Shown here piece after piece: positions 6,936-38,257 of a DNA stretch of 64,000 nt (the first letter of the stretch is position 1; each line of letters opens with the position of its first letter). The stretch is from Actinomycetes bacterium (lineage in GTDB: Bacteria; Actinomycetota; Acidimicrobiia; Acidimicrobiales; RAAP-2): positions 1 through 64,000 of the forward strand of contig JAJYVS010000007.1 of assembly GCA_021791895.1 (NCBI GenBank), read 5' to 3'. Made by a program: the position numbers and the translations under genes. A model generated the notes under the pieces. It worked only from the letters and a program-made list of their open reading frames with translations, was not told where the DNA came from and ran no database searches.

Positions 6936-7736
6936 TCAGCGGGTGGTGGCGTCGTGATAGGCGGAGAGGGACTTGGTCAGCCCGGCGACCCGTTCCCGCC
7001 AGATCCTGGCTTCTGGGAAGTAGAAGCGCAGGTCGGTCGCCGACAGCAGCTCGATACTCAGAATCTCGTCGATCAAATCGCCGTCGTTGCCGAGGGGGCT
7101 GAGAGGCCACCGTCGGGCAACGGAAGCCCTGAGCCGAATCGGAAGGAACTGGAACGCGGGAAACACCGCGTGGGGCTCAACCGGAAAGTATCGGTTGGGC
7201 GTCTGAACCCAGTACCTCGACGCGAGCGACCTGATCGCGTTGGCGAACTCGACCCGGCGTGCGTGGCCCCCGACGTGTTCGATCGTCGAATTGGAGAAGG
7301 CCAGGTCGAAGGGCCCGAGCCGCTCGATCGCCGGGAAGTCGCAGGCGTCACCCTGCACGGTCAGGAGCCAGTCTCCCGGGCTCTCATGGGCCTCGAAGTT
7401 GACGCACACCACGCGGCGAGGTCGGACCGGCAGTTGTTGCCACATGGACGGTCTGCCGCCGAGATCGACGACGGACATGTCCGCGAGGTCCGGGAAGGCG
7501 CGGAGCAGGGCCTCGAAGCGGTGTCGACGTAGCCGTGACGAGATCGAGAGGGGATTGTTCCCCCCGGTCAACGCATCCTGCATCCGGCGCCCCCGGACTC
7601 GGGCGTGCGGATCGGACAGGGTGTCGGAGGATTGCCGGCCGTCTTCGCTCGTCGATACCTCGTCGTGAGGTTCGACGACGGGCTCGCCGGGTCCGAGTCC
7701 GACCTCAGCGCGAGCCGTGTACCGCGTCACGGTCAC
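6936..7736 (-). CDS. Class I SAM-dependent methyltransferase
   Basis: A 266-residue methyltransferase of the type 11/12 group. The SAM-binding motif I is a slightly weak glycine loop (VVDLGGRP), motif II carries the acidic residue after VVCVNFE, and the post-motif FDLAFSNSTIEHVGG is typical of methyltransferases acting on sugars or lipids. The start GTG at 7736 overlaps the stop of the upstream glycosyltransferase gene (GTGA) and is preceded by GGAGGG, so the two genes are coupled. It probably methylates a sugar made by its partner; this is inferred only from coupling. Confidence 0.82.
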   Translation of the reverse strand: MTVTRYTARAEVGLGPGEPVVEPHDEVSTSEDGRQSSDTLSDPHARVRGRRMQDALTGGNNPLSISSRLRRHRFEALLRAFPDLADMSVVDLGGRPSMWQQLPVRPRRVVCVNFEAHESPGDWLLTVQGDACDFPAIERLGPFDLAFSNSTIEHVGGHARRVEFANAIRSLASRYWVQTPNRYFPVEPHAVFPAFQFLPIRLRASVARRWPLSPLGNDGDLIDEILSIELLSATDLRFYFPEARIWRERVAGLTKSLSAYHDATTR

Positions 7737-9550
7737 GGCCGAACCCTCCGGTGGATCATGCGCGACAGCGAGCAAGAGACGAACAGGTGTGCCGCGAAGG
7801 GAAGGTCGTGGACGATGTAGCGCCGAAAGAGACGGCGCGGTTCCAATCGGAGGCGGTGCACCCACTCGAGGGAGCGTTCCCGCATCCACGTGGGAGCCTT
7901 GGGCAGCTCGCCGGTCACCATGCTGAAGGTCCCGCCACAGGCGACGAACCAGACCGAGGGGTAACGCTCGCCCAAGTGGGCCATGAGTCGCTCCTGCTTC
8001 GGCGCCCCGAATCCGCAGAAGACGACGCCCGGGGCTGCCTGCTCGATCGCCCGGTGGACCTTGGCCATCTCGGTCTCGCTGTGCTCGAAGCCCATCGGCG
8101 GGCAATAGGAGTCGATCGTCAGCTCTTCATACCGATCGGCCAGGACGCCCGCGGCCTGCTCGGCACTGCCCGAAGAACCACCGAGCAGCAGGACGCCCAC
8201 ACCGTGGCACGCCGCTTGATGACAGAGCGACCAGATCATCTCGGAGGCCGGGACCCGCTCGAGTAGTGGCGTCCCTTGGATCCGAGACGCCCAGAGGATC
8301 GGCATGCCGTCGGCGAGAACCAGCTCGGCGTCACAGATGAGGCGCCGCAGTTCGGGATCCAAGCGGGCCTGACGGAGGATGTCCACGTTGAGGTTCGAGA
8401 TCCTCCCGCCGTCGCCGTGATCGAGCGAGCTCAGCACCTTAGTGATGGCCTCTCTTTCGGTCACGTTGTTGAGGGTGACTCCCATCACCTCCACTCGGTC
8501 GTCCCGTTCGGAGGGGACCGCGGCCCTGACCAGGCCGACCAGGACCCGGCGTTGGCACCGCCACCGGTCGAGTTGCTCGACGCGAGCTCGTTCGATCCGT
8601 CCGAGGTATCGCCGGTAATCGGTGACGAGGCGGGAGAGTGCTTCGACGAGTGCGTCGGCGTCGTTCTTGGCGTGGATCGCGTGTCGGAACAACTCCCGTC
8701 CGACGGGCCAGTCGCTGAGGACCAGGGGCCGGCGGGCATAGACGGCTTCGTAGGCCGCACGCATGACCGAGGTCGGCTCGGTGGTCAGGGCGACGACGGC
8801 GTCAGCTGCCGACATCTCCTGTCGATACCGCTCGGCATCCAAGAAGCCGGCGAGGCGGACGTTCCCGGGGAGGTCGTGCCGGAGGGCCGGTGACAGCCGA
8901 GCGGGCTCGCCGGTCAGCACGAAGTCGCACTGGGGGAATCGACCGGTCGCCTCCAGCAGGTCGGCGACCGGCTCGTCGGGGCTGAACGTCCCCACCACGA
9001 GCACCCGGAGCCGGCCGTGGCGGGCCGGAGCCGCCAGGTCCCAGCCTCCCGGCGCCTCGTGGACGATTACCGGGGTGCCGCCCCACGACCGCACCCGCTC
9101 GGCCCAGCCATCGTCGGTGACCATCACGAACGCCGCCCGCCGGACCAAGAACCGGTGCCACCGCTGGAGCCGGGCCGCCACCGTGTCCCCCTGGGCACCG
9201 AAACCCCCGGGATGGCTGTCCAGGGCGAACGCGGCCCCGATGATCCGCGACCACAGGTAGGCGACCAGGGCACCGGGCACCGGGGGATTGGTGAAGATCA
9301 CGAGTTTGGGACGTCGGCGCAGGAGGTAGGTGCCAGTGGCTACTGCCGCCATGAGGTAACGGAGCGGCACCGGCGGTCGGCGCCGGGTCCCGATCGGGAA
9401 GAAGCAGCGGGCCTCGCCACCGAGGACCTCGGCCATCTCCTTCGAGCGGCCGGCGATCGAGCCCCAGGCGAGAAAGGCGACGTCCCGGCGCGCCGGGCTC
9501 GCCGGGGAGACCGGCTCTCCTGATTGCGCTCTCGCGACGGTCTGCACCAC
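7733..9550 (-). CDS. Fusion of GT-B glycosyltransferase with WecG/TagA (GT26) glycosyltransferase
   Basis: A 605-residue two-domain enzyme. Residues 20-340 look like a GT-B glycosyltransferase (LRVLVVGTFSPDEPVADLLEA, then the acceptor/donor cleft segment ending MRAAYEAVYARRPLVLSD). Residues 354-600 are a WecG/TagA/CpsF domain: LNVDIL, the catalytic-Asp segment LADGMPILW, GFGAPKQE and the terminal pattern RSLEWVHRLRLEPRRLFRRY. GT26 enzymes transfer ManNAc or ManNAcA from UDP onto lipid-linked GlcNAc in teichoic-acid or exopolysaccharide initiation. Fusing it to a second transferase implies that two consecutive sugars are added by one polypeptide. Start GTG at 9550, with GTG at 9547 as alternative. 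It is the first gene of a two-gene operon with the methyltransferase. Confidence 0.88.
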   Translation of the reverse strand: MVQTVARAQSGEPVSPASPARRDVAFLAWGSIAGRSKEMAEVLGGEARCFFPIGTRRRPPVPLRYLMAAVATGTYLLRRRPKLVIFTNPPVPGALVAYLWSRIIGAAFALDSHPGGFGAQGDTVAARLQRWHRFLVRRAAFVMVTDDGWAERVRSWGGTPVIVHEAPGGWDLAAPARHGRLRVLVVGTFSPDEPVADLLEATGRFPQCDFVLTGEPARLSPALRHDLPGNVRLAGFLDAERYRQEMSAADAVVALTTEPTSVMRAAYEAVYARRPLVLSDWPVGRELFRHAIHAKNDADALVEALSRLVTDYRRYLGRIERARVEQLDRWRCQRRVLVGLVRAAVPSERDDRVEVMGVTLNNVTEREAITKVLSSLDHGDGGRISNLNVDILRQARLDPELRRLICDAELVLADGMPILWASRIQGTPLLERVPASEMIWSLCHQAACHGVGVLLLGGSSGSAEQAAGVLADRYEELTIDSYCPPMGFEHSETEMAKVHRAIEQAAPGVVFCGFGAPKQERLMAHLGERYPSVWFVACGGTFSMVTGELPKAPTWMRERSLEWVHRLRLEPRRLFRRYIVHDLPFAAHLFVSCSLSRMIHRRVRP

Positions 9551-15351: not shown

Positions 15352-15930
15352 GTGCTCGCTCAGCGCAAGGGGCGGTTGCGGGAGCGGGTCGGTCGTCACC
15401 AAGGTGAGCGGCAAAGCGCGCTCCTGATCGCCGTGCCCGAGGTGGATCCGCTGATCCGCTCGCTCGGGGTGCCGCCGGCCGGCAACGGCCTGCCGCCGCA
15501 CGTCACCGTCCTCTACCCCTTCCTCCCGCCGCCGACCCTCGGCCCCTCGGTGGACGAGGCACTGGCCAGGCTTCTCGGCGCCCATCGCGCCTTCGACTTC
15601 GCCCTCACCGGGCTCGGCACGTTTCCCGGGGTGGTGTGGCTCGCCCCCGAACCCGACCAACCGTTCCTGGACCTTGGCGACTCGGTCATCGCCGAGTGGC
15701 CCGACCTCGCCCGCTACGGCGGCGCGTACCCGAGCGAGGTGGCCCATCTCACCGTGGCGCGCGGTCGGGTCCGCCGTTCCTGGCGGGCGACCGTCGCCGC
15801 GGCCGTCCCGATCCGGGCGCGGGCGACCGAGGTGCTGCTCATGGTGGAGGGCCCCTCGGGGAACTGGAGCCTGCTGCGACGGTTCGCGCTATCGGGGCTC
15901 GGAGGGAGCGATGTCCTGCAGGGTGGCTAG
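15352..15930 (+). CDS. 2H phosphoesterase (2'-5' RNA ligase-like)
   Basis: A 192-residue member of the 2H phosphoesterase superfamily, recognised by its two H-x-T motifs: PHVTVLYPF (about residue 45) and VAHLTVARG (about residue 130). Members act on 2',3'-cyclic or 2'-5' phosphodiesters of RNA or nucleotides; the substrate here is unknown. GTG 15352 was chosen because a TANNNT box lies directly upstream. The last 42 bp overlap the end of the nucleotidyltransferase gene on the other strand. Confidence 0.85.
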   Translation: MLAQRKGRLRERVGRHQGERQSALLIAVPEVDPLIRSLGVPPAGNGLPPHVTVLYPFLPPPTLGPSVDEALARLLGAHRAFDFALTGLGTFPGVVWLAPEPDQPFLDLGDSVIAEWPDLARYGGAYPSEVAHLTVARGRVRRSWRATVAAAVPIRARATEVLLMVEGPSGNWSLLRRFALSGLGGSDVLQGG

Positions 15931-16593
15931 GTCTTGGAGGTCGCGTCGGCGGGGCTCGTAACCGCGATGCAAGGCGAGCTGGACGTCGGTGCTGAGGCAC
16001 GGGACGATCCGCCCGCCGAGGGACCCCCAGCCGAAGCAGTCCGAGCCCAGGGTCGGCGTGAGGTCGGGTTCGGCCCCAGGGCCTTCGATCGTCACCGGGT
16101 GGACATCGATGTGGCGGCCGAGCGCGTCGCGATACACCGAGCTGCGGGACAGGCCGGCCTCGGGGACCTCGAACTGCGCGTAGGGCTCGAAGCCGAGCGA
16201 CGCGAGGCAGGCCGCGACGGCCTCTTCGTCCTCGATGCGGACGACCAGGTCGAGGTCGTGGTGCCAGCGGGTCTGCCGACCGACCAGCGCGTCGACCCCC
16301 CAGCCCCCGGTCAACCAGACCGCCAGCCCGGACGTCTCGAAGTGCTCGACGAGCCTGAGCACCTGTTCGGATCGCACCCCCACCACCCGCCGCTTGAGGC
16401 GCCGGACGAACCGCACCCGTTCGAACGCCCGGCGCAGGACGCCCGGCACGGAACGGTAGATCCGCCAAGCGGACGCCCCCGACCGTTTCGACGGGCACGC
16501 CGGGCCACCGGTCGTCGCCGGTCGGTCGGCCTTCGCCCCGGGGAGCGGGCCGGGACCGACGACGGCGTCGGAGCGAGGATCGACCGAGGTCAC
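15889..16593 (-). CDS. Nucleotidyltransferase (aminoglycoside-nucleotidyltransferase-like fold)
   Basis: A 234-residue protein whose C-terminal 170 residues match the AadB/LinA-type nucleotidyltransferase fold. WLTGGWGVDALVGRQTRWHH is followed directly by DLDLVV, giving the Gly-Gly and DxD metal ligands that bind NTP. Residues 1-60 are Arg-rich and poorly conserved. It would transfer an NMP to a hydroxyl group of a small molecule, sugar or protein. GTG 16593 overlaps the stop of the upstream alpha/beta hydrolase gene (GTGA), making it the last gene of the carrier-protein operon. An antibiotic-resistance role is possible, but context favours a biosynthetic or sugar-activating job. Confidence 0.78.
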   Translation of the reverse strand: MTSVDPRSDAVVGPGPLPGAKADRPATTGGPACPSKRSGASAWRIYRSVPGVLRRAFERVRFVRRLKRRVVGVRSEQVLRLVEHFETSGLAVWLTGGWGVDALVGRQTRWHHDLDLVVRIEDEEAVAACLASLGFEPYAQFEVPEAGLSRSSVYRDALGRHIDVHPVTIEGPGAEPDLTPTLGSDCFGWGSLGGRIVPCLSTDVQLALHRGYEPRRRDLQDLATLQDIAPSEPR

Positions 16594-18359
16594 CGGCCCA
16601 CCGCCTCGCTCGGGCCGTGAACCGGTGCCCCAGCGTCGTTCGCCGCCGGCGGATCGGCCAAGAAGAGCACCTTCTCTAGGTGCTCGGTCATCCTCGATGC
16701 GACGTCGGCACGCTGCCAGGCCGGGACCAGCGCGTGGTCGAGACCCTCGATCACCTCGATCTGGACGCGGTCCCCGTCCGAAGTGGCCAGGGTGTCGTAG
16801 GCCTCCACCCCGAAGGAGCGGGCCTCGTTGACCCCGCAGAGGATCAGGACGTCGACCGCCTCGGCACGGAGCCGGTCGAGCCACTCGGCGGGATTGCGCC
16901 GACGGTGGAGCAGGTGGGCTACCCGCCAGACGGCCTTGCTCAGCTGCCGACGGACCGGTTCGACCGCGAGCAGGCGGTAGGCGCCGACGAAGGAGCCCAC
17001 CGGCCAGCAGATCCGCCGTCTCGGGTCCATCGGTCCGTGGGCGAGTTCGGGGGGGGTGAAGTGCAGGATCGGGTTGATCGCGCAGACCGCGCGCAGGGGT
17101 CGAGCCAGCGCCGCCTCGAGGGCCTGGTAGCCCCCCGAGCACAGGCCGACCACGGCGACGTCGGCTGGGTCGGCGCAGAGGGCCCGGCGGGCGTCCTCGA
17201 CGTCGTCGAAGTTCTCCGGTGCCCGGATCACCTGGGGAGCCTGGCCCGGGCGGGTGGGGCTGTCGCCCAGGCCGCTCTCGTCGAAGCGGACACAACGGAC
17301 CCCCATCGACGCCCAACGTCGGGCCAGGTCGACCCACAGCCGGCTCGGTCCGACGTGGCTGTTATTCCCACTGTTGAGCATGAGGACGGTGGTCGAGACC
17401 CTGGGATCGTCGGGGTCGGTGACGATCCCGAACAGGCCCGCCGGGCCGATCCGCACCGTCTGCTCGGTGACGCTCGTCCCGGCCGCACCGATCCGGGCCG
17501 ACTCGCGCCGGGGCACCACGACCGGGCCCACCGGCCCGGGGTTGGGCGTCGCCAGCCACGAGACGATGTGCCCCATGGTTTCCATCGGGATCTCCCGTTC
17601 CGCCAGGTCCACGTCCAAGAGCCGCTCCTGGCCCAGAGCCGGCCCCTCGGTGATCTCGGCCCCGAGCGCGCCGGCCAGGTCGACCTGGGGCTGCCGGCCA
17701 GGCCTGGTCAGGAGCAGGACCCGGGCCGGCGGGTGTCGGACCTCGGGGATCTCGAGCGAACTGAGCTCCGCCGCCGTCGGGGCGTCGAGCACCATGCCGG
17801 GGAGTTCGACGATGCCCTCCGCGACCGGGTGGTCGTCGAGCGCCAGCCTGTGGAGCGCCGACTGCTCACGGAGGAAGGCCCGGGGCGAGGAGCAAGGATC
17901 CCACAGCACCACCCCGTCGATCGATCCTGTCCCGGCGGTCGCTACCGCGGCCAGGAGGGCTCCCATCCGCATCCCAACGAGCGACACCGAAGGACAGCCC
18001 GATCCCCGGGCCAGCTCGACGGCAGCGGAGATGCTGGCGAGCCAGGCCGCCACCCGAGCAGGGTCGCCGTCCTCACCGGCTGAGTCCCCGGTGCCGTCGT
18101 AGTCGAACCGCACCGCCAGCATGCCGGCCGCCGCGAGGTGCTCGGCCAGCAGTCGGTAGGCGTAATGGGCGTTGGTCCACTCTCGGGCGAGTGGCGGACA
18201 GAGGACCACCGCCCCGATCGCCCGGCCGTCAGCCGGGCGATGGACCCAGCCGAAGAGGGGCCGGTCGGTGGGGCCGAACCACAGCGTGCTCTCGGTCGTC
18301 GGCGTCTTCAGGTCGTCCCGATGCCCAGCGGCGCGCTCGGGCGCGTGCACGAGGCTCAC
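16590..18359 (-). CDS. Tandem alpha/beta hydrolase (exosortase-system-like), first half lacks nucleophile
   Basis: A 589-residue protein made of two alpha/beta-hydrolase domains (about 20-265 and 300-575). Both resemble the serine-hydrolase family found beside exosortase/polysaccharide loci (PPLAREWTNAHYAYRLLAEHL; VRFDYDGTGDS). The first nucleophile elbow reads GMRMG (129-133), with Arg where Ser or Cys should be, so this half is probably not catalytic. The second reads GLCSG (405-409), leaving Cys407 as nucleophile, with a DHALVPAW histidine segment near the end. It could release or transfer an acyl or aminoacyl group from the neighbouring carrier protein. GTG 18359 overlaps the ligase stop (GTGA). 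Confidence 0.8.
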   Translation of the reverse strand: MSLVHAPERAAGHRDDLKTPTTESTLWFGPTDRPLFGWVHRPADGRAIGAVVLCPPLAREWTNAHYAYRLLAEHLAAAGMLAVRFDYDGTGDSAGEDGDPARVAAWLASISAAVELARGSGCPSVSLVGMRMGALLAAVATAGTGSIDGVVLWDPCSSPRAFLREQSALHRLALDDHPVAEGIVELPGMVLDAPTAAELSSLEIPEVRHPPARVLLLTRPGRQPQVDLAGALGAEITEGPALGQERLLDVDLAEREIPMETMGHIVSWLATPNPGPVGPVVVPRRESARIGAAGTSVTEQTVRIGPAGLFGIVTDPDDPRVSTTVLMLNSGNNSHVGPSRLWVDLARRWASMGVRCVRFDESGLGDSPTRPGQAPQVIRAPENFDDVEDARRALCADPADVAVVGLCSGGYQALEAALARPLRAVCAINPILHFTPPELAHGPMDPRRRICWPVGSFVGAYRLLAVEPVRRQLSKAVWRVAHLLHRRRNPAEWLDRLRAEAVDVLILCGVNEARSFGVEAYDTLATSDGDRVQIEVIEGLDHALVPAWQRADVASRMTEHLEKVLFLADPPAANDAGAPVHGPSEAVGR

Positions 18360-19267
18360 CCGAACAGCTCCCTGCCGACGCGCTCGGGCCATTGGTCGGG
18401 GTCGAACCCGTGCGCGGCCAACAGCGCGATGGCGACCCGGTCGGTGCCGAACCCGAGGCAGGCGCTGTGGGCGACGTCGCCGTCGGCGGTCTCGATGTGG
18501 AACGGCAGGCCGAAGTGATCGCGGTGGTAATTGGCCGACAGGAGGGCCGTCGGATCGGCACCGGGCACGATCGGGGCCACCCCCTCGTACTTCAGGCCCT
18601 CGTCCTTCTGCTCCGCTGCCATCGCGGCGCCGAGCCTCCCGAAGAACGGGTCGTTGGCCGGGACCGCGCTGACCTCGAGCCCGAGCTCGGTCAGGAGTCC
18701 CAACCCGATCTTGAGTGCCTGGTCGCGATGACGTTGGGCCGTCTTGGGTTCCCCGATGTAGACGATCTCGTGCATGCGGAACGTCTGCTGACGGACCGGG
18801 TCCAAGCTCGGCTCGTGCCGGTAGCAGGACCCAGTGACCTCGAAGCGCACGCCACCCTCGGGCAGACGACCGGTGCACATGGGGTAGAGGTGGTGGCAGA
18901 GCGCCGGCACCAGCATCACTTCTGCTGGTTGGAGCAACGTCGAGTAGTCCACGTCGTGCTCGAGCCGGCGGATCAGCTCGGCGTGCTCCCGGTCGGATCC
19001 CTCGAAGACGTGAATGGACCCCATGAGATCGGGGAAGGCGCGCAGGTAGCCAGTCGAGTCGAAGGTGCGCCGGGCCATGACCGGAGGGAGATGGAGCGCG
19101 GTGGCGCCGAGGCGCTCTCCCCATCGGCGAACCTTGGCGTCAAAGGCGCGCACGATCCGCTCGTAGGTCTCGGAGCGGCCGTAGACGCCGTCGACCCCGG
19201 TCGGGAACAAAAGGCCCTCGTCGAACAGCCGCTTTCGCAGGTCCTGGCGGAGGTCGATGGCGTTCAC
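18356..19267 (-). CDS. Amino acid:[carrier protein] ligase (class II aaRS-like)
   Basis: A 303-residue homologue of the catalytic core of atypical seryl-tRNA synthetase with no tRNA-binding arm. It has class II motif 2 (VTGSCYRHEPSLDPVRQQ, then FRMHE) and motif 3 (ACLGFGTDRVAIALL). Candidate zinc-ligand cysteines lie in LYPMCTG and SACLGFG. In known members (the Bradyrhizobium type) the enzyme activates a small amino acid such as glycine or alanine with ATP and loads it onto the phosphopantetheine arm of a dedicated carrier protein. The carrier gene lies 52 bp upstream in the same operon. GTG 19267 was taken as start because no in-frame alternative fits; an out-of-frame ATGA overlap exists at 19320-19323. 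The loaded amino acid cannot be read by eye. Confidence 0.85.
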   Translation of the reverse strand: MNAIDLRQDLRKRLFDEGLLFPTGVDGVYGRSETYERIVRAFDAKVRRWGERLGATALHLPPVMARRTFDSTGYLRAFPDLMGSIHVFEGSDREHAELIRRLEHDVDYSTLLQPAEVMLVPALCHHLYPMCTGRLPEGGVRFEVTGSCYRHEPSLDPVRQQTFRMHEIVYIGEPKTAQRHRDQALKIGLGLLTELGLEVSAVPANDPFFGRLGAAMAAEQKDEGLKYEGVAPIVPGADPTALLSANYHRDHFGLPFHIETADGDVAHSACLGFGTDRVAIALLAAHGFDPDQWPERVGRELFG

Positions 19268-19319
19268 GGCGAACCTGGCCGTTGCCGGCTCACGGCGAAG
19301 AAGTCGGCCCGGGTCCGGC

Positions 19320-19583
19320 TCATGCCGCGACCCCGCCGAGCTCGAGCAGGGCGTGCTCGATGGATGTCACCGATTGGAAGGTCGACTTGCGGATGAGGGC
19401 CTCGGGGAACTCGACCTCAAAGGTCTCCTCGAGAGCGAGCATGAGGCTGACGCTGGCGTGCGAAGTCATGCCGGCCTGGAACAGATCGCTATCGTCGCCC
19501 AGCTCCTCGATCGGCACCGAGAGGCGGGCGTGCTCGGACACCACCGTTCGAATCTGTTCCTTCACGATCAGCTCCTGGTTCAC
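19320..19583 (-). CDS. Aminoacyl carrier protein (ACP-like)
   Basis: An 87-residue acyl-carrier-like protein. The phosphopantetheine attachment Ser lies in DLFQAGMTSHASVSLMLALE, at the start of helix 2, and matches the pattern of amino-acid carrier proteins that partner with aaRS-like ligases. GTG 19583 overlaps the stop of the AcpS gene (GTGA). This start is preferred over an ATG 36 bp further upstream because every neighbouring junction in this operon uses the same GTGA overlap. It is the expected substrate of both AcpS (upstream) and the ligase (downstream). Confidence 0.85.
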   Translation of the reverse strand: MNQELIVKEQIRTVVSEHARLSVPIEELGDDSDLFQAGMTSHASVSLMLALEETFEVEFPEALIRKSTFQSVTSIEHALLELGGVAA

Positions 19584-20011
19584 GAGTCGCGGGACTCCAT
19601 TGTCATTGGTCGGTGCCATCCGTACGCGGACCCGCTCACCACGACTGCGGCCGCCATGCCCGCTTCATGGGCCATGCTTAGGGAGAACGGACCGAGGCCC
19701 TGCTCGAGCGCGAGTCGGGCGGCGGCACCGCGGAGCCGGAGCCGACAGACGCCGGTGGGGAGCCGGACCACCTCGATGGACCGCCACTCGGGACGTCTTC
19801 GGGTCCGACCGAGCAGCTTGAGGGTCGCCTCCTTGGCCGCGAACCGGGCCGCCAGCGAGGCGGCCGCCACCGGGAGCGGCCCCTGGCAGCTCGAGATCTC
19901 GTGCTCGGTGAACACCCGATGCAAGTAGCGGTCGCCGAAGCGCTGGACGGACCGGACCACCCCGGCAATGTCCACGAAGTCCACCCCGACGGCGATCTCG
20001 GCGCTGGTCAC
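19580..20011 (-). CDS. Holo-ACP synthase (AcpS-type phosphopantetheinyl transferase)
   Basis: A 143-residue AcpS-type enzyme. The metal-binding motif VGVDFVDIAGV (about 8-18), FTEHEI and the RFAAKEATLKLLG motif with the catalytic Glu-Lys region are present. It transfers 4'-phosphopantetheine from CoA to a carrier-protein serine. GTG 20011 and the stop at 19580 both form GTGA overlaps with the flippase and ACP genes, so it is very likely dedicated to the adjacent carrier. The divergent Sfp-type enzyme at 23891 probably serves the NRPS carrier. About 20 residues beyond the usual end form a short tail. Confidence 0.88.
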   Translation of the reverse strand: MTSAEIAVGVDFVDIAGVVRSVQRFGDRYLHRVFTEHEISSCQGPLPVAAASLAARFAAKEATLKLLGRTRRRPEWRSIEVVRLPTGVCRLRLRGAAARLALEQGLGPFSLSMAHEAGMAAAVVVSGSAYGWHRPMTMESRDS

Positions 20012-22176
20012 GGGTGGGTCTCCAGACTCGGGAATCGACGGAAGACCGAACCGTTGACGCGCGAGAGCGCCTCCTTGCCGGCGAAGGGATTCCCGCCCCG
20101 GGCGAGCACGGCATCGAAGCCCGCCAGCCAGTGCCGCCGGGGGGTGCCGGCAGGGGGTTCGGCCCGACCGGTCAGGGCGTCGAGGGCGTGCAGCAAGAAC
20201 ACCTCGGTGTCGATGGCCTCGCCGCTCGCCACGCTGGTCGCCGAAGTGCGAACCGCAACCCCGTCGCCCAGAGGGAGCGCCCCCAGCATCTCGGCCACCC
20301 GAGACCGCAGCGTCTCCAGCTCGACTTCGTAGGGGAGGTGGACGAGGAGTCCGAGCAGTGCGGGGCCGAGGCGGGCGACGACGTCGTCGTCCCGGACGTA
20401 CTCGGACAGCCAGGCCGCGACCTGCTGGATCCGAGGGAATCCGCGTGGCCCGGGAGCCTCCGGCTCGGGAACCTCGACGAGGATGACGCCGACCGTCCCG
20501 GTCGCGGAGCGCAGCGTGGCGAGGGACCGCCCGAGACGGTCGGTGAACCCTCCCAGATTGGCGATCCCGGTGAGCGGGTCGGGTGCGAACAGCTCGCTGA
20601 GCCGGATCGTCCCGAGTACCGGGTCGGGCGCCGACGGCGCAGCCGTCCCTCCGAAAACCCCGGCACCGTTGCCTGCTGCGTCGCCCGTCCACTCGATTGC
20701 CGGCGAGCTCGTCTGACGGTCCTGGCGCGCCGCCGCCCAACGGAACAGGTTGACGAGCCGGACGATCTCTCGGCGCATGGGTGGCAGTGCCACGAGCGGC
20801 AGTCCCGCCAAGAGGAGCAGGGCCCACGGCATCGGGGCGACCGGGAACGCGATCACCGGCCCCAAGACCACCAACCACGGGATCACCTTTCGGTAGCTGA
20901 AGGCGAACATCTGGCGCATCACGACGTGCAGGTACCCAAGGGCGCCCAGCGCGCCGAGCGACGCCCAGCCGAACCCGTCGAGGCCGGTCAGCCGAACGAG
21001 GGCCGTCGCGCTCACGCCGAGCACGAGGACGCGGAGGGCGACGGTGGTCGCGACGACGAGGTTGCGGCCCCGGCTGTAGAGGAACGTCGACTGGACGAGG
21101 CCCGAGGCGCCGACCGTGGCGGCCAACGCCAGCAGACCGTAGACCGGGAGCCCCCGGACCCACTGCGGACCGAAGACGACCGGCACGATCCAGCGCGCGC
21201 ACACGCTGAAGCAGGCGAAGGGGATCCCAAGCGAGAGCAGCTGGAGCAGCGACCCTTCCTCGATCGAGTAGCGCAACCGCTTCTCGTCTCGGTTCGGGAC
21301 CCTCGACATGGCCACGAGCCCGAGGCGAAAGGCGCTGCGCTTGGCGAAGCCGAGCGTGTCGACCAGCCTCTGGGCAAAGGCCACGTAGCCGACCCCGGCG
21401 GCGCCCAGGAACGTGCCGACGACGAGGGGGTTGACCAGGTCGCCGGCCCGCCGGAGCCAGTCCGAGCTCGAGAACCCGAGTCCGTGCCGGAAGAACTCCC
21501 GAACCGCCTCCCAGGACCAGTCCCATCGGTAGCGCAGCCTCGAGGCGATCCAGGTCGCCACGAACAACCAGCCCTGCCAGGCGAAGAACCCGGCGACCAG
21601 GGACCACTCCCGATGGTGGGTCAGCGCCAGCGGGATGGCGGTCGCGTACAGGATGACGTCGCCGACGAGCTCGATCATCCCCATGGTCCGGTAGTCGAAG
21701 CGTCGCTCGATCGCCGCCTGGGCCGGGGCCCACAGCACGTTGAGGGGGATGCACAGGAGCAGCACGCGCAGGGGCTCCAGCACGCCGATCGGTCGGAGCA
21801 GGCCGCCGACCGCCAAGGTGAGCGCTTCGCCGACGGCGGTGACCACCACAGACGTCACCAACAGCAGGCTGAAGGCCTGGTCGTAGTGCCGCGCCTCGAT
21901 GGCCGTGCCGAGCCGGATCAGATAGACCTCGAGGCCCATCTGGGCGAAGGACGCCATGAAGAGCGCGAAGGCCGAGGCCGCCGTGTAGATCCCGAACGCA
22001 CTAGGGCCGATCAGCCTGATCACCACGACCACGCCAATCAGGCGCAGCAGCATGCCGACGGCCTCGCGACCGATCAGATACCCGCCACCGCGGATGGCCA
22101 GCTGACCGAGTGAGGGACCCGTGGTCCGCCTGTCTGGGGCGCTTTCAACCGCTAGCGGCCCGGAAGCAGTGTCCAT
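20008..22176 (-). CDS. Wzx-like polysaccharide flippase fused to degenerate GGDEF domain
   Basis: A 722-residue protein. Residues about 25-470 are a polysaccharide/lipid-linked oligosaccharide flippase of the MOP superfamily with many transmembrane helices (start RGGGYLIGREAVGMLLRLIG). After a linker, residues 530-650 form a GGDEF-like domain: the entry motif DPLTGIANLGGFTDRL is kept, but the catalytic loop reads VVARLGPALLG instead of GGDEF. It should not make c-di-GMP and may bind nucleotide or partners as a regulatory domain. A close paralogue of this domain lies in the next upstream gene. ATG 22176; the stop overlaps the AcpS start. Fusing a flippase to a signalling domain is unusual. Confidence 0.85.
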   Translation of the reverse strand: MDTASGPLAVESAPDRRTTGPSLGQLAIRGGGYLIGREAVGMLLRLIGVVVVIRLIGPSAFGIYTAASAFALFMASFAQMGLEVYLIRLGTAIEARHYDQAFSLLLVTSVVVTAVGEALTLAVGGLLRPIGVLEPLRVLLLCIPLNVLWAPAQAAIERRFDYRTMGMIELVGDVILYATAIPLALTHHREWSLVAGFFAWQGWLFVATWIASRLRYRWDWSWEAVREFFRHGLGFSSSDWLRRAGDLVNPLVVGTFLGAAGVGYVAFAQRLVDTLGFAKRSAFRLGLVAMSRVPNRDEKRLRYSIEEGSLLQLLSLGIPFACFSVCARWIVPVVFGPQWVRGLPVYGLLALAATVGASGLVQSTFLYSRGRNLVVATTVALRVLVLGVSATALVRLTGLDGFGWASLGALGALGYLHVVMRQMFAFSYRKVIPWLVVLGPVIAFPVAPMPWALLLLAGLPLVALPPMRREIVRLVNLFRWAAARQDRQTSSPAIEWTGDAAGNGAGVFGGTAAPSAPDPVLGTIRLSELFAPDPLTGIANLGGFTDRLGRSLATLRSATGTVGVILVEVPEPEAPGPRGFPRIQQVAAWLSEYVRDDDVVARLGPALLGLLVHLPYEVELETLRSRVAEMLGALPLGDGVAVRTSATSVASGEAIDTEVFLLHALDALTGRAEPPAGTPRRHWLAGFDAVLARGGNPFAGKEALSRVNGSVFRRFPSLETHP

Positions 22177-22209: not shown

Positions 22210-23691
22210 TCATTGTCCGGGCAGCTCGTCTGCTGCTCGGCGCAGAAGCGACTCCGCGGTCTCGGTGCTCCCGGCCTCGGCCGTCGCCATGGCCGAGCGC
22301 GCTCGCAGGCCACCGGTCGACGAGTCGACGCCCGCCGTCAGGGCGTCGACGGTGCGCGTCCGGATCACCTCGAGTTCGATGGAGCCGGGCCGCAGGTCGG
22401 CCATGATCGCGAACAGGTTCGGCCCGATGCGGGCCACGAGGTCTCGGTCGCGGAGATGGTTGGTAAGCCGCCCTGAGACCGTCATAAGGGCCGAGGGTCC
22501 GAGCTCGTGCACCGGGTCAGTCGGCGAGACCTCGATGAGGATCAGCCCCACCGTCCCCTCGTTGTTCGCCACGTGAGTGAGCGAGCTGCTGAGCCGACCG
22601 ACCAGCGTGGTCAGACTGGCCAGCCCGGTGTCAGGATCCGGCGCCAAGAGGGCGTCGAGTCCGCTCGCGCCCGAGGCGATGGTGCTCGGCTGGGGCTCGG
22701 CAACCGAAGGTTCGGCAACCGAGGGTTCGGCAACCGAGGGTTCGGCAACCGAGGGTTCGGCAACCGAGGGTTCGGTCCGTGCCTCCGTCGACCACGTTTC
22801 CTCGGCCGGAGGTCCGGCCTCGGTATCCATGTCGGTCGGCGGAGCGACCGCCGGCTCTGGCGCCGGCATGACGACCTCGGGCTGAGGGACCGTCGCCGGG
22901 GTCACCGCCTCGACCCATTCGATCTGGTCGAGGCCGAGGAACTCCCAGTCGTCGACTCGGCTGGCGCCCTGCACGGGCTGACCCCAGGCGATGCCGTCGT
23001 CGAGCGCGTCGGCGGCTTGGTCGAGCGGGTGCTCGTCGTCGACCTGCTCGAAGAAGGCTTCGAGGTCGACGTCGGGCTGCGATGGAGGTACATCTGCCGT
23101 GGCCCATCCTTCGACGAGCGGCTCCGAAGGGCTGAGGGTCCAGGCCGACTCGGTCGGCTCGACCGGTGCCGGCTCTGGCTCGGCGCTCGGCCGCGGATCG
23201 AAGGAGAGCGAGCCCTCGAGCACCCGCTGGCGCGCCCGCAGGTAGGAGGTCAGCCGGGTGGCCAGGTTCGCGAGGAGGTTCAGCTGGTCCTGCTCGAAGT
23301 GGCCGGCCGGAGGCTCGGCCACGCAGAGCAGGCCCCAGGGGTGCTCGGGGGCGTCGGTGTCGCTGAGCGGTGCGACCGCCAGCTTGATGTGGTGGCCTTG
23401 TCCGGTCCACATGCTCCTCAGGACCCGGCCGCTGCGGACGAGCACCGTTCCGCCGGTCAGGTGTGGGTCCTCCCAGGTCTGCCGGACGAGCTCGTCGATC
23501 GACTCGACCGTCCAGGTCGGATCGGCCGTCAGCGTGGGGAAGGTGGCGATGGCGAACCCGCCGTCGGCCTTGCGCAGCGCGGCGAAGGCCAGCGAGCCGC
23601 CGCATTGGGTCTTGGCCATCCGGAGCAGGTGACCGACACCTCCATGAGCTCCGTTGGCGCTTCCCTGGTCGTCGGTCATCATCGTCGACAC
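22210..23691 (-). CDS. GAF-like plus degenerate GGDEF protein with repeat linker
   Basis: A 493-residue cytoplasmic signalling-type protein. Residues 20-160 have a GAF-like pattern (ending GLLCVAEPPAGHFEQDQLNLLANLA). A long acidic Pro/Glu-rich linker contains five near-identical PSVAE repeats. Residues 345-490 are a GGDEF-like domain (DPDTGLASLTTLVGRL) whose signature is lost (ARIGPNLFAI), so cyclase activity is not expected. The domain is clearly similar to the one fused to the flippase 33 bp downstream. GTG 23691 has AGGAGG seven bases upstream. It is the first gene of the minus-strand operon running to the nucleotidyltransferase, and may sense a signal and control export. Confidence 0.78.
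   Translation of the reverse strand: MSTMMTDDQGSANGAHGGVGHLLRMAKTQCGGSLAFAALRKADGGFAIATFPTLTADPTWTVESIDELVRQTWEDPHLTGGTVLVRSGRVLRSMWTGQGHHIKLAVAPLSDTDAPEHPWGLLCVAEPPAGHFEQDQLNLLANLATRLTSYLRARQRVLEGSLSFDPRPSAEPEPAPVEPTESAWTLSPSEPLVEGWATADVPPSQPDVDLEAFFEQVDDEHPLDQAADALDDGIAWGQPVQGASRVDDWEFLGLDQIEWVEAVTPATVPQPEVVMPAPEPAVAPPTDMDTEAGPPAEETWSTEARTEPSVAEPSVAEPSVAEPSVAEPSVAEPQPSTIASGASGLDALLAPDPDTGLASLTTLVGRLSSSLTHVANNEGTVGLILIEVSPTDPVHELGPSALMTVSGRLTNHLRDRDLVARIGPNLFAIMADLRPGSIELEVIRTRTVDALTAGVDSSTGGLRARSAMATAEAGSTETAESLLRRAADELPGQ
22696..22770. repeat. Five tandem 15-bp repeats inside the GAF/GGDEF-like gene
   Basis: Five contiguous copies of a 15-bp unit (TTCGGCAACCGAGGG on the plus strand; four exact and the first with two changes) encode PSVAE repeats in the linker. 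Being in multiples of three, slippage would change linker length without breaking the frame. Confidence 0.9.
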
Positions 23692-23890
23692 GCCTTGTCC
23701 TCCTGGTCAGCGTTGAAAGAGCCGTTTGGACGGTCGATCCTCGGGGGGAGTTCGGTCGCCTCCGAGGCCGCTCGTCGCCAATAGCGTACGAAATCCGCGT
23801 CCCGGAACCGTCTACCCCTTGTCCCAGGCACGATTGAACCCCTTGCGTCCTCGCGATCTAAGAGTCCCTACATTGCCGAGCGGAGGAGCG

Positions 23891-24562: not shown

Positions 24563-24646
24563 CTTAGCGCCCACCGCTGATCCGTGCCTGAGGCTGGGAC
24601 ACGACACGGACGGTGGTGGGACGCCCGCTTCGTACCCTGCCAGGAG

Positions 24647-24678
24647 CACTGAACCGGCCCGCCACTGAACCGGCCCGC
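24647..24678. repeat. Two tandem 16-bp repeats upstream of the NRPS genes
   Basis: The sequence CACTGAACCGGCCCGC occurs twice in direct succession (24647-24662 and 24663-24678), about 62 bp before the A-PCP start. Direct repeats before a biosynthetic operon can be activator sites, for example for SARPs, but the 16-bp period is not the usual 11 or 22. Confidence 0.6.
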
Positions 24679-24740
24679 TGACGGGGTCCTTCCGTCACCA
24701 CTCTCCGTGTTTACAGGGCTCCGTGAGGGAGGAAGAGCGA

Positions 24741-30309: not shown

Positions 30310-31436
30310 GCCCCGACCGCCTTGGCCATGGGCGTCACCGCCCCTGCGGCGGCGACCGTGTGGAGCATCGCCGCCGAGCGGGGGAAGGAGCCGTTGGTGA
30401 GCGCCCACGAGCCGTCGTCCCAGACCACCGCGGCGACCAGGTTCTGTCGGTCTGCCCAGCGGAGGAACTGGCTGACGAACGTGGGGTCGTCGCCGCCCCC
30501 CGAGGCCGCGGCCGGGACCACGCCCCACTTGGCGATCATGAAGAGCTTCTTGTGCTGGTCGGCGAAGGTCGCGAACCAGTCGGGGCCGTAGGCGGCGGAG
30601 GCCAGCTCGTTCCAGCTGGGGCCGACCAGCCCGAGCCCGACGTCGAAGGCGTCGGTGGCGACGACGTCGACGTAGGCGTTGCCCGGGTAGAGCGCGCTCG
30701 GCAGGACCCCGTAGCCGGCGGCGGCGTCCCACACGAAGAGGAACTGCTGGTTGGGCACCGAGCGCATGGCCGTAACCACCGCCCGCCAGTAGGCCACGTA
30801 CTGCTGCGCGGCGCCCGGCGTGGTCGCCGCCCACGGCACCGTCGGGTCGCCGGGGTCCCAGCCGAGCACGATCAGCGAGCTGCCCTGACCGCCGTCGACG
30901 AGCACCTGGGCGAGCTCGGTGAAGTACGAGTTGTAGGCACCGGCCGCCCCGGCGGCCAGCGTGGCGCCGCCGGTGCTCGGGAGCATCGGGACGCCCCACA
31001 TCATCCGGAAGCCGGTGCCGTTCCACCGTTGCAGGAACCACGCGGGGTTCTCGATCGTCGACCACGAGGTGCCGTCGAGATAGTCGAAGGCATAGGGGAC
31101 CGGGGCACCGGCGACGGCGCTGAAGGTGCTGGCGCTGGCCACTGCACCAGGGCCGGCGTAGACGCCGAGGGGGACGGTGGTGCCGATGACGGCCGGCTTC
31201 GGTGCCTTGTGGGCGGGGCTCATCGTGGGCGGCGCTGGGGTGGTCGTCGGGGCGGAAGTCGTCGAGCTGACGGCGGGCGCCGCCGTGTTGAGGGTGCTCT
31301 CGGAGACCACCCGCACCAGGACCCAGACCGCGGTCCCGGTCGCTGCGAGCAGGAACAAGGTGGCGACGAGTCGCCCCGGTCGCATGGACCGGGCCATCCG
31401 CCTCCTCGCGGACCGTGCTCGGGCGCGCAGGCTCAT
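30306..31436 (-). CDS. GH26-like exported protein with both catalytic Glu replaced
   Basis: A 376-residue protein with an N-terminal basic/hydrophobic signal anchor (21-44), a Thr/Pro-rich linker and a GH26 (mannanase-like) TIM barrel starting GVYAGPGA at about 91. In related proteins the acid/base Glu sits in LGWE and the nucleophile Glu in EWG; here they read LGWD (D194) and AKWG (K303). Hydrolysis is therefore unlikely, and a binding or scaffold role for the exported polysaccharide is possible. ATG 31436 overlaps the stop of the polymerase gene (ATGA). The 3' ends of this gene and of the convergent condensation gene overlap by 4 bp. Confidence 0.78.
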   Translation of the reverse strand: MSLRARARSARRRMARSMRPGRLVATLFLLAATGTAVWVLVRVVSESTLNTAAPAVSSTTSAPTTTPAPPTMSPAHKAPKPAVIGTTVPLGVYAGPGAVASASTFSAVAGAPVPYAFDYLDGTSWSTIENPAWFLQRWNGTGFRMMWGVPMLPSTGGATLAAGAAGAYNSYFTELAQVLVDGGQGSSLIVLGWDPGDPTVPWAATTPGAAQQYVAYWRAVVTAMRSVPNQQFLFVWDAAAGYGVLPSALYPGNAYVDVVATDAFDVGLGLVGPSWNELASAAYGPDWFATFADQHKKLFMIAKWGVVPAAASGGGDDPTFVSQFLRWADRQNLVAAVVWDDGSWALTNGSFPRSAAMLHTVAAAGAVTPMAKAVGA

Positions 31437-32947
31437 GACGCACCTCCCGTGGGCACGAGAGCGGCCTCGGCCGCCACCGCTGGTACGGCGGGTGAGGGAC
31501 GCCTGGGCACGGTGATGGCCAGGAGACACCAGAGCACCTGGGGCATCCCGCCGTTGCTCAGGAACGGCCAGATCAGGTTCATCACGAGCATGGCGCCGAC
31601 CGAGACCGCGACGGCCCGACCCAGGGCCTGCTCGAAGGGGTCCTTTGACCGGCCGGCCCTCCGGCTCTCCTCCACCATCGCCCATGCCAGGGCGCCGAAC
31701 AGCAACAGCATGGGCAGGCCGCCCTCGATCAGGTACGAGATGTACTGGGATTCGGGGTACACCCAGGTGATCGAGGAGGGGAGCTCGGAGCCGTAGCCGG
31801 TCAGGGGCCGGTTGCCGATGGCCGGCAGGTACTGGCCGGTCCACACGTTCCAGCGGAACGCGAGGGTCTGGGGGACGCCGGCGGGCCGCGACGAGCCCGG
31901 TGACGCCGAGAACTCGGCGGCGAAGCGGGGGGCGATGAAGGGGGCGGCCACCAGCACCCCGACCAAGAGGACGGCACCGGCATAGCGGATGACGCGACGG
32001 CCCAGCCCGTACTGGCGGGCGAGGAGCACCGCGCCGAGGACCAAGAGGGCCATGGCCGAGATCTCGATGGTGACCAGCAACCCGATCAGCACGCACAGCC
32101 CGACGGCGACCGTCGCCCGGCGGTGCCGCCGGATTTGGCCGGAGAAGCTGAGGGCGCACAGCACGAGCAGGACCGGCAGCAGGTACCCGGCGAGGGCGGC
32201 CCAGTTGTTGAAGGGCCCGGTGGCCCGAAGGCTGTGGCCGGTCTCCATCGAGGCCGTGATCTCGGCCGCCAGGCCGCCGGTGATGGTGTTGAGGAACCGG
32301 GAGACCACCCCTACGTGCAGCTCCTGGAGCAGAGCCAGGAGCGACACCGGGACGGCCGCGGCGAGGAGCACCTTGGTCGCCAGGCGGCGCTCGGCGGCGC
32401 TTCGAAGCGAGAGGCGCACCCCGCGGTAGATGAGGAAGAACTGGAGCTGGCCGATGGTCGTTCCCCACGCGTCGAGGCTCAGGTGCTGGTGGAGGTTCAG
32501 CGCGTCCAGCACCCCGAAGAACGCCCAGGCCAGGCCGTAGGCGAGGAGGAGCCAGTCGAGCATCGACCACGCGACGGCGTCGGCCCGGCGGGTGGTGGCG
32601 ATGACGGTCATCCCCACCAGGCCCACGATCAGCTCGGAGGCTCGGACGTGGGGGACCGGGATGCCGGTGGCCATCCCCGAGAGGATCGGCACCGCGCCGA
32701 CCAAGATGATCCCACCGATCACCGGGCGCACGAGGACCGCGACCACCAGGCCCACCCCGACCAGCCCGGCCACCGCCAGGTCGAGCTTGTGCATGGCCAT
32801 CACGCCGAGTGCAAAGGCGACGACCGGCGCCGCGAGGCCGAGGAGGATCGGGCGCTGGCGCGCCGCGAACCACCCGGCGTCGTGCCCGTCGAGCCGAAGT
32901 GTGCTCGGACGGCGCAGGAGCGCCGTCCCGCCGGGCTCAGCCCACAC
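31433..32947 (-). CDS. O-antigen ligase / Wzy-type polysaccharide polymerase
   Basis: A 504-residue integral membrane protein with about 11-12 hydrophobic helices and the O-antigen ligase/polymerase (Wzy_C) pattern: a large extracytoplasmic loop in the second half (from FRWNVWTGQYLPAIG through LTGYGSELPSS) carrying conserved Arg and Gly residues. It would polymerise or ligate lipid-linked oligosaccharide repeats outside the membrane after flipping. GTG 32947 overlaps the chain-length gene by 11 bp and the stop overlaps the GH26-like gene start, placing it inside a four-gene exopolysaccharide operon. Confidence 0.87.
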   Translation of the reverse strand: MWAEPGGTALLRRPSTLRLDGHDAGWFAARQRPILLGLAAPVVAFALGVMAMHKLDLAVAGLVGVGLVVAVLVRPVIGGIILVGAVPILSGMATGIPVPHVRASELIVGLVGMTVIATTRRADAVAWSMLDWLLLAYGLAWAFFGVLDALNLHQHLSLDAWGTTIGQLQFFLIYRGVRLSLRSAAERRLATKVLLAAAVPVSLLALLQELHVGVVSRFLNTITGGLAAEITASMETGHSLRATGPFNNWAALAGYLLPVLLVLCALSFSGQIRRHRRATVAVGLCVLIGLLVTIEISAMALLVLGAVLLARQYGLGRRVIRYAGAVLLVGVLVAAPFIAPRFAAEFSASPGSSRPAGVPQTLAFRWNVWTGQYLPAIGNRPLTGYGSELPSSITWVYPESQYISYLIEGGLPMLLLFGALAWAMVEESRRAGRSKDPFEQALGRAVAVSVGAMLVMNLIWPFLSNGGMPQVLWCLLAITVPRRPSPAVPAVAAEAALVPTGGAS

Positions 32948-36499: not shown

Positions 36500-36591
36500 C
36501 GAGGGGCCGGTCCCACGAGCGTCTTTCGAGTGTCCCGATTTTCGGGCCCGAAACAGTTCTGGCCAGGGACGGTCGGTGGACAGCGGTTCCG

Positions 36592-36597
36592 TACCGT
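36592..36597 (+). promoter_or_regulatory. TACCGT -10 box before the small gene
   Basis: TACCGT lies eight bases before GTG 36606 with no ribosome binding site, a slightly longer spacing than at other leaderless starts. Confidence 0.35.
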
Positions 36598-36605
36598 TCC
36601 TCATT

Positions 36606-36791
36606 GTGTTCGTGTCCTATGTGCTGAGGGTGCGGCCCGAGGGGCTGCAGGACGGGCGGTTCAGTGGGGAGGTCGAGGCGGTGGCGACCGGCCAGCGCTT
36701 CGCCGTCCGCTCCTTGGACGAGCTGCTGGCTTTCGTGGTCGAGACCATGACCGAGGGCTGGTTGGGCGGATCGTGGGCGGGGGGGTCGTGA
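36606..36791 (+). CDS. Small hypothetical protein coupled to sugar transferase
   Basis: A 61-residue protein (VFVSYVLRVRPEGLQDGRFS, then GEVEAVATGQRFAVRSLDELLAF). The pattern of a beta-hairpin followed by LDELLAFL-type helix is seen in small actinobacterial hypotheticals; no function is known. Its stop overlaps the GTG of the sugar transferase (GTGA), so it is translated as the first gene of that operon. The start is uncertain (GTG 36606 or 36612). Confidence 0.6.
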   Translation: MFVSYVLRVRPEGLQDGRFSGEVEAVATGQRFAVRSLDELLAFVVETMTEGWLGGSWAGGS

Positions 36792-38257
36792 GCAGCCGTC
36801 CCGCCGGGGCCCCGGCCGCCCTGGCCGTCGCTCGGACCCACCGGGCCGCTGGGGCCGCGTTCGTTGCCCATCGGGCGGCGCCCCCGCCGAGCTGGCGCTG
36901 GCTGGCCCTCGGTGACGGGCTGAGCGCGCTCGTGGTCCTGCTCGTGGCGAGCAATCTGATCCCGGTCCTGGCCGCCTCGTCGACCTCGGTCGCCGACATC
37001 GTCCAGTTCGTCGCGATCTCGTGGGTCGCCCTGGCGGTGGTGGCGGGCGCGAAGCGGATCTACCCCCGCGCCACCCGTCGCATCGCCCCCGAGCCGGCCG
37101 ACGACCTCGTCGGCCTGGAGGCGTCGATTGCCACCGCCGGCCTCTTGACGCTGGCTCTCGGGGCGGTGGCGCCACCGTTGCTCCATGGGCCGCTCGCGCC
37201 GGGCGCGGTGGCGGTGGCCTTCGGCGGCTGCGCCGTGGTGCTGCCGCTCGCCCGGGCGGCGGTGGTCGCCACTCGGGCCCGGACGGCCACCCGGCCGACA
37301 CGGATCGTGGTGGTCGGGACCGGGACCATCGCCACCGACGTCGCCGGGCGCCTGACCCGGTCGCCGCACGTGGAGCTCGTGGGGTTCGTCGACGACGAGC
37401 CGGTCGCCGGCCACCCGGTCCTCGGTGGGCTCGGTGACCTGCCGACCATCTGTGCGCGCACCTCGGTCGACCGGGTGGTCGTGGCCTTCAGCCGCTCTCA
37501 CCCCGCCCGGACCACCGACATCCTGCGCTCCTTGGTCGGGAAGGTGGCCATCGACGTGGTCCCCCGGTATTTCGAGCTGACCGGGTGGGCGGCGAGTGTC
37601 CAGGACCTCGACGGGCTCGCCGTGATCAGCCTCGACGGCGGTGGCCCCGGGCGGCTCGGCGCGCTGGCCAAGCGGGCCTTCGACCTCCTCGGGGCGTCTT
37701 TCGGCCTGCTCGTCCTCTCCCCGGTCCTGCTCGGGGCGGTGGTGGCGATCAAGCTCAGCTCACCGGGTCCGGTGCTCTTCCGCCAGAGCCGGCTCGGGCG
37801 GCACCGGCAGCGGTTCGACATCTTGAAGCTCCGGACCATGCGCGAGCCCGATCCCTCCGACGAGCGGGTCGAACACCGGGCACCGGGGCCGCTCGCCGAG
37901 CGGCCCGAGACCTGTCGACGGGTGACCCCGGTCGGCGCGCTGCTGCGGCGCCTGGGCATCGACGAGCTGCCCCAGCTCATCAACGTGGTGCGGGGCGAGA
38001 TGTCGCTCGTCGGACCGCGCCCGTTCGTCCCCGAGGAGTGCTCGGTCCTGCCCGAGTGGGTCGACCGGCGGTTCGAGATCCGGCCCGGGCTGACCGGACT
38101 GTGGCAGGTCTGCGGGCAGCACAACCTGCGGTTCGACGAGCTGTGCCGTCTGGATTGCCAGTACGTGGCCAGCTGGACCTTCGCCGGCGACGTGCGGATC
38201 CTGGCCCGCACCCCTGGCCGCCTGTTGCGGGGCAATGGCGGCGAACCTCTTCGGTGA
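36788..38257 (+). CDS. Polyprenyl-phosphate sugar-1-phosphate transferase (exopolysaccharide initiation)
   Basis: A 489-residue integral membrane enzyme of the bacterial sugar transferase (WbaP/WcaJ-like) family. An N-terminal membrane region of about four helices is followed by a Rossmann-like CoA-binding-type domain (RIVVVGTGTIATDVAGRL). The C-terminal catalytic domain contains KRAFDLLGASFGLLVLSPVL, PVLFRQSRLGRHRQRFDILKLRTM, IDELPQLINVVRGEMSLVGPRP and RPGLTGLWQVCG. It links a sugar-1-phosphate from an NDP-sugar to undecaprenyl phosphate, the first step of repeat-unit assembly that the flippase (20008) and polymerase (31433) would complete. GTG 36788 overlaps the small gene's stop. Confidence 0.92.
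   Translation: MSSRPAGAPAALAVARTHRAAGAAFVAHRAAPPPSWRWLALGDGLSALVVLLVASNLIPVLAASSTSVADIVQFVAISWVALAVVAGAKRIYPRATRRIAPEPADDLVGLEASIATAGLLTLALGAVAPPLLHGPLAPGAVAVAFGGCAVVLPLARAAVVATRARTATRPTRIVVVGTGTIATDVAGRLTRSPHVELVGFVDDEPVAGHPVLGGLGDLPTICARTSVDRVVVAFSRSHPARTTDILRSLVGKVAIDVVPRYFELTGWAASVQDLDGLAVISLDGGGPGRLGALAKRAFDLLGASFGLLVLSPVLLGAVVAIKLSSPGPVLFRQSRLGRHRQRFDILKLRTMREPDPSDERVEHRAPGPLAERPETCRRVTPVGALLRRLGIDELPQLINVVRGEMSLVGPRPFVPEECSVLPEWVDRRFEIRPGLTGLWQVCGQHNLRFDELCRLDCQYVASWTFAGDVRILARTPGRLLRGNGGEPLR

Follow-up and report, generated by a model that had tools for sequence, protein, structure and literature searches.

The window analysed in this study covers the first 64 kb of a contig of 86.8 kb, which belongs to an actinobacterial genome of 2.83 Mb that is 88% complete (G000). 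On its minus strand lie six genes in the order Wzx, AcpS, ACP, ligase, tandem hydrolase and nucleotidyltransferase. A Wzx-type polysaccharide flippase of the MOP family (20008..22176, -; PF13440, 7e-36) is followed by an AcpS-type 4'-phosphopantetheinyl transferase (19580..20011, -; PF01648, 6e-14; PRK14660, 9e-28), whose GTG start overlaps the wzx stop, and then by a dedicated acyl carrier protein (19320..19583, -; NF005480/PRK07081, 98.7 bits with a cut-off of 72). Further along come a class II aaRS-like amino acid:[carrier protein] ligase of 303 aa (18356..19267, -; NF005479, 370.7 bits with a cut-off of 357), a tandem alpha/beta-hydrolase encoded as one 589-aa protein (16590..18359, -), which was recognized by TIGR03101/TIGR03100-like matches below cut-off, by alignment and with AlphaFold, and a nucleotidyltransferase of the lincosamide/aminoglycoside type (15889..16593, -; PF10706), closest to lincosamide nucleotidyltransferases. 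All the parts that the initial annotation had named in its five-gene chain directly behind a flippase are present there on the minus strand, and its statement that most junctions overlap by GTGA is correct: the overlap occurs at four of the five junctions (Wzx/AcpS, AcpS/ACP, ligase/hydrolase and hydrolase/nucleotidyltransferase), and at the remaining junction ACP and ligase are separated by 52 bp.

The cassette is not there by chance, because the same order is found in seven genomes of the window's genus and its genes are under purifying selection when compared with congeners (dN/dS 0.13-0.49). The nucleotidyltransferase had been taken as a member of the set, which was to be looked for beside wzx in other genomes. 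In fact, recurrence in the seven genomes holds for AcpS, ACP, ligase and hydrolase, whereas the nucleotidyltransferase is found in only three of the seven genus members and is accessory; the conserved unit is therefore AcpS-ACP-ligase-hydrolase behind Wzx.

The window also holds a Wzy/O-antigen-ligase-like membrane protein (31433..32947, -; PF04932, 3.9e-9), a polyprenyl-phosphate sugar transferase (36506..38254, +, start not fixed; PF02397, 1.8e-53, with the Bac_transf domain at 37670-38227), a glycosyltransferase fused to a WecG/TagA/CpsF glycosyltransferase (7733..9550, -; PF03808, 7e-48) and a GT4 glycosyltransferase. Upstream of Wzx lies a degenerate GGDEF protein (22210..23691, -; PF00990, 1.8e-5), and the GGDEF-Wzx pair recurs in all ten genomes with this Wzx type; the C-terminal tail of Wzx itself (20008-20560, -), where there is no Pfam match, resembles by eye a degenerate GGDEF domain. 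A protein of 580 aa encoded between Wzy and a PAS-GGDEF protein (32937-34679, -) gave no Pfam or PHROG match. The polysaccharide locus also contains an NRPS-type operon (23726-30309, +), placed between Wzy and the Wzx cassette, with an Sfp-like PPTase, an A-T protein, a P450 and a C-A protein. This operon recurs in the congeners G296, G297, G298 and G301, and no copy was found in the 20 kb surrounding the ligase of G300. The A-T gene of the window has an in-frame stop at 25203-25205 (+), just 5' of the VVYTSGSTG core motif of the A domain; intact copies of the gene occur in congeners, and the stop codon may be a real mutation or an assembly error.

The ligase and its carrier protein

Amino acid:[carrier protein] ligases were reportedly first described in 2010. 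The window ligase aligns over nearly its whole length with the Bll0957 structures 4h2w/3mey (E about 1e-67), and its C124, E167 and C270 align with C131, E176 and C279 of Bll0957, which we take to be the residues binding zinc; among 32 ligase sequences two of these ligands are invariant and one is conserved at >90%. On the side of the carrier, Ser41 (TSHASV) is the phosphopantetheine site and is invariant in 20 of 20 aligned sequences. Both proteins score above the curated family cut-offs, which confirms the ligase-ACP pair of the initial annotation, and the view of the AcpS as a private enzyme of the cassette is also supported. Because of this family membership, the loading of this ACP is well supported, and we consider it very probable from the sequences that the window ligase charges its neighbour with an amino acid. 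Gly and Ala are among the reported substrates of such ligases, whose in vivo role was still called unknown in a 2022 review (PMC9437257).

It might be supposed that the enzyme charges tRNA and that its ACP neighbourhood is incidental, as it shows a distant similarity to archaeal-type SerRS (E 6.5e-18, residues 111-299 only). The match to the amino acid:[carrier protein] ligase family is far better, however, and the 303-aa protein ends with the class II catalytic core, having no tRNA-binding domain; moreover, an ACP of the matching PRK07081 family is adjacent to the ligase in nearly all loci. Family score and domain content led us to reject tRNA charging, and we give this reading next to no credence. 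With the Bll0957-type ligases of Bradyrhizobium (NF005479/PRK07080) the window enzyme shares the cut-off passed, the zinc ligands, the lack of a tRNA-binding domain and the adjacent cognate ACP family. It differs from the described members in that the pair is linked to a private AcpS, to a Cys tandem hydrolase and to a Wzx/Wzy locus, and in that the acyl-CoA-dehydrogenase-like and DUF1839 genes are missing from the window.

The tandem hydrolase

The AlphaFold model of the hydrolase (pLDDT 86, pTM 0.87) comprises two domains. At the nucleophile elbow of the N-terminal domain stands Arg131 in 25 of 27 homologues, and because it replaces the nucleophile, this domain is, to judge by its residues, very likely inactive. 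The C-terminal domain carries Cys407 in a G-x-C elbow in all 27 homologues and seven further copies, position 512 (Glu512 in the window) is acidic, D or E, in all aligned sequences by inspection, and His542 is kept in all complete sequences but two; its nearest folds are those of esterases, dienelactone hydrolases and the thioesterase DcsB. This pairing of a seemingly dead first domain with an invariant Cys nucleophile in the second, the latter as in aminoacyl transferases, is new here. The two exceptions come from congeners (L048:8117-9748 and L058:10638-12269), where the catalytic His is Gly and the Cys is retained. In one of these two genomes (G297) the ligase is frameshifted and split in two pieces, which together with the change from His to Gly may be a sign of cassette decay.

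Remote similarity links the two halves to XrtA-associated hydrolases 1 and 2 (TIGR03100, TIGR03101), families that belong to exopolysaccharide-linked systems. However, the halves are fused here in one protein, both cut-offs are missed by far (75.8 vs 202.75 and 44.8 vs 168.45), and exosortase was found in none of eight genomes, including the window's own (88% complete), with one control genome giving a signal. Membership of an XrtA/PEP-CTERM system is ruled out by the missed cut-offs together with this negative search.

CmaE and SyrC are proteins of the alpha/beta-hydrolase fold with a Cys nucleophile, and features of this type, namely the fold, the Cys nucleophile and its acid-His partners, are found in the window hydrolase. 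CmaE, SyrC and CysB, the last being a CmaE homologue similar to SyrC, move aminoacyl groups from carrier to carrier (PMC7966384, PMC8748450), shuttling between carrier domains in NRPS pathways. As these proteins act on carrier-bound aminoacyl groups, the window hydrolase may be seen by analogy as a candidate for the same, although it has two domains, one of them apparently dead, and stands in an operon without an NRPS partner.

The co-occurrence of hydrolase and ligase was counted by whole-genome searches of 61 relatives, a contig scan having yielded two loci only. The hydrolase is present in 21 of 21 ligase genomes and in one of the 40 genomes without ligase (Fisher, 1.8e-15), and at the genus level the two are associated in the same 13 genera (1.4e-11); relatedness inflates these figures, yet the genus-level one remains strong. 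The invariant Cys upholds the earlier proposal that the hydrolase may be the transfer enzyme. Since the protein constantly accompanies an aminoacyl-ACP and has a Cys nucleophile, it is suggested to be a transferase, a role for which we judge the chances, as read from the sequence, to be about even.

The fuller operon and its genomic setting

Loci of Alpha- and Betaproteobacteria, Planctomycetota, Actinomycetota and Bacillota outline a wider operon, of which the commonest order is (AcpS)-ACP-acyl-CoA-dehydrogenase-like-ligase-DUF1839-GH2-like-tandem hydrolase; a variant in Priestia is without DUF1839 and GH2. The dehydrogenase, DUF1839 and GH2 genes are absent at the cassette locus of the window genus. 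In a close relative (L056) the full set follows a Wzx of the window's type, another relative (L045) keeps the dehydrogenase and is without DUF1839 and GH2, and in the window itself only AcpS, ACP, ligase and hydrolase are left. The window cassette is a reduced form of this wider operon, a relationship which is new here. A search for the GH2-like gene relocated elsewhere in the window genus, run without a positive control, gave no match, in agreement with the absence of the gene from the flanks analysed; the window genome, at 88% completeness, has no PF08893 (DUF1839) and no PF14399. Among the 61 relatives, DUF1839 occurs in eight ligase genomes and in no other. In a tree in which many of the deeper forks are open, the ligases of G592 (full set) and G693 (short set) are sisters with 100/100 support, so that the short set has probably originated on more than one occasion.

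The predicted fold of DUF1839 matches CcbD (Z 19.1, 286 aligned residues, 3.5 A) as well as AziU3 and CtaG, the next matches being far lower (7.5), and the family has an invariant Cys19; its match to a BtrH_N-type profile is weak (hhalign E 0.019, probability 2.4%), too weak to demonstrate a link on its own. In CcbD the amino acid is transferred from its carrier to the enzyme's own Cys and then joined to a sugar amino group (PMC12945683). Because DUF1839 is predicted to fold like CcbD, a likeness which appears to be new here, the likely chemistry of the fuller operon would be the joining of an amino acid to an amino sugar via DUF1839, and descent gives a hint that this chemistry extends to the window, which is without DUF1839. 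The lincosamide synthetase (CcbC/CcbZ/CcbD, LmbC/LmbN/LmbD) thus resembles the fuller operon in bringing together a carrier-bound amino acid and a sugar, but it activates the amino acid by an NRPS A domain instead of an aaRS-type ligase, and the window lacks the CcbD-like member.

Regarding the polysaccharide context, 11 of 21 genomes, where 0.45 were expected, have a polyprenyl-phosphate sugar transferase no more than 21 kb from the ligase, as do 7 of 13 genera; the 21-kb limit was set after the data were seen, the count at 10 kb is 3 against 0.21 expected, and the ligase genomes have 0-3 copies of this transferase each. In ten genomes, which belong to four genera, one Wzx type is located about 2-3 kb from the ligase. 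The hydrolase also has copies on other contigs, with Wzx as their neighbour in G320, G323 and G315 and with glycosyltransferases beside them in other genomes. In Tsukamurella and the actinomycete G693, AcpS, ACP, ligase and hydrolase are placed among sugar transferase and glycosyltransferase genes, the Tsukamurella locus also having a Wzx; indeed, the loci with a clear short form (those of the window genus, G308, G693 and Tsukamurella) are among polysaccharide genes. Co-conservation is well above expectation, and an absence of it, which had been named as a ground for refutation, fails because Tsukamurella and another actinomycete keep the short set in polysaccharide loci. However, the full operon stands outside any polysaccharide locus in Azospirillum, Mycetohabitans and Phyllobacterium. 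The proposal that a surface polysaccharide is aminoacylated is hence favoured by the co-conservation and weakened by these several Proteobacteria, because of which the polysaccharide link is seen as lineage-dependent.

The Dlt system (DltA/DltC/DltB), which decorates a surface polymer with an amino acid carried on a dedicated ACP, is similar by analogy; nevertheless, the cassette has an aaRS-type ligase in place of DltA and a Cys hydrolase, and the lack of an MBOAT within it rules out Dlt membership. The single MBOAT of the window genome is on another contig (C92). Capsules with amino acid substituents, in which the amino acid nitrogen is joined to uronic acid (PMC10627249), were rejected as a precedent owing to the opposite polarity of the linkage.

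Possible routes of the aminoacyl group

In view of the above, we propose that the cassette might be a reduced aminoacyl-carrier-protein module in a Wzx/Wzy-type locus. Most likely, the aminoacyl group would pass from ACP to the Cys hydrolase and from there to a sugar within a lipid-linked glycan, a model that we believe about as much as we doubt; the product would be a glycan, on which our opinion is equally divided. AcpS would transfer phosphopantetheine onto Ser41 of the ACP, and the ligase would, as is well supported for its family, activate what is probably a small amino acid, such as Gly or Ala, as its adenylate and load it onto the ACP. The aminoacyl group would then move onto Cys407 and further to a sugar amino or hydroxyl group, with the dead N-terminal hydrolase domain perhaps serving for docking, and the acceptor would be a lipid-linked repeat unit or sugar precursor, flipped by the neighbouring Wzx. 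For the fuller operon found elsewhere, the CcbD-like DUF1839 would form an amide to an amino sugar. What counts against this model is that the full operon stands outside polysaccharide loci in the three genera named above, that DUF1839 is missing in the window genome, that His542 is Gly in two genus members and that one genome has a frameshifted ligase.

The Cys hydrolase could also be an editing thioesterase, that is, a proofreading type II enzyme clearing wrong aminoacyl-ACP, with the acceptor enzyme located elsewhere, for example in the adjacent NRPS condensation domain or in the off-contig MBOAT. Its fold, shared with lipases, esterases and DcsB, agrees with this, and an NRPS operon does adjoin the locus in several genus members; nevertheless, the A domain of the window operon carries a stop codon, the operon does not adjoin the cassette in G300, and the MBOAT of the genome lies outside the cassette. 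Moreover, the strict co-occurrence with the ligase, the two-domain architecture with one domain inactivated, and a Cys instead of a Ser point to transfer, so that we regard editing as improbable.

Another explanation is that the cassette makes a diffusible, lincosamide-like aminoacyl-glycoside or modified amino acid, and that the polysaccharide loci reflect only shared sugar precursors or export. The CcbD-like DUF1839, the operon standing alone in Proteobacteria and in Priestia (in the latter with genes for an ATP-grasp protein, an alanine permease and an alanine racemase as neighbours), the window nucleotidyltransferase resembling lincosamide-modifying enzymes and the adjoining NRPS operon all speak for such a product. 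On the other hand, in Actinomycetota the set shows an enrichment next to Wzx and to the polyprenyl-phosphate sugar transferase, the clear short-form loci are among polysaccharide genes, and the window genome is without DUF1839; we therefore consider a small diffusible product unlikely, though worth serious attention.

If the transfer to a glycan sugar is taken as the working model, the cassette would represent a new route of glycan decoration, in which a tRNA-synthetase-derived ligase, a private carrier and a Cys tandem hydrolase (or DUF1839) act on a surface-polysaccharide sugar before export, which would supply the in vivo role so far missing for the ligases; we hold this view tentatively, at somewhat below even probability. 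If true, enzymes derived from the translation machinery would be linked to surface glycan chemistry, and PF08893 would gain a likely function. That the Cys tandem hydrolase is a constant partner, that DUF1839 is CcbD-like in its predicted fold and that polysaccharide genes form the context leads to the direct question whether an amino acid is put on a sugar.

Some further loci deserve mention. The operon on a Priestia megaterium plasmid (L092:10169-18716) has the order AcpS-ACP-dehydrogenase-ligase-DMT transporter-ATP-grasp-hydrolase, with the alanine permease and alanine racemase genes adjoining, and this plasmid is a good model for finding the loaded amino acid. ATP-grasp proteins resembling L-amino acid ligases are also seen beside the cassette in several members of the family, at L053:5172-6509, L055:14659-16488, L043:3788-5140 and L057:10273-11943. 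On a Rhizobium plasmid (L088:7481-10307) the cassette is directly 3' of efp, epmA and a lysine-2,3-aminomutase-like gene, and thus two aaRS-derived modification systems adjoin there.
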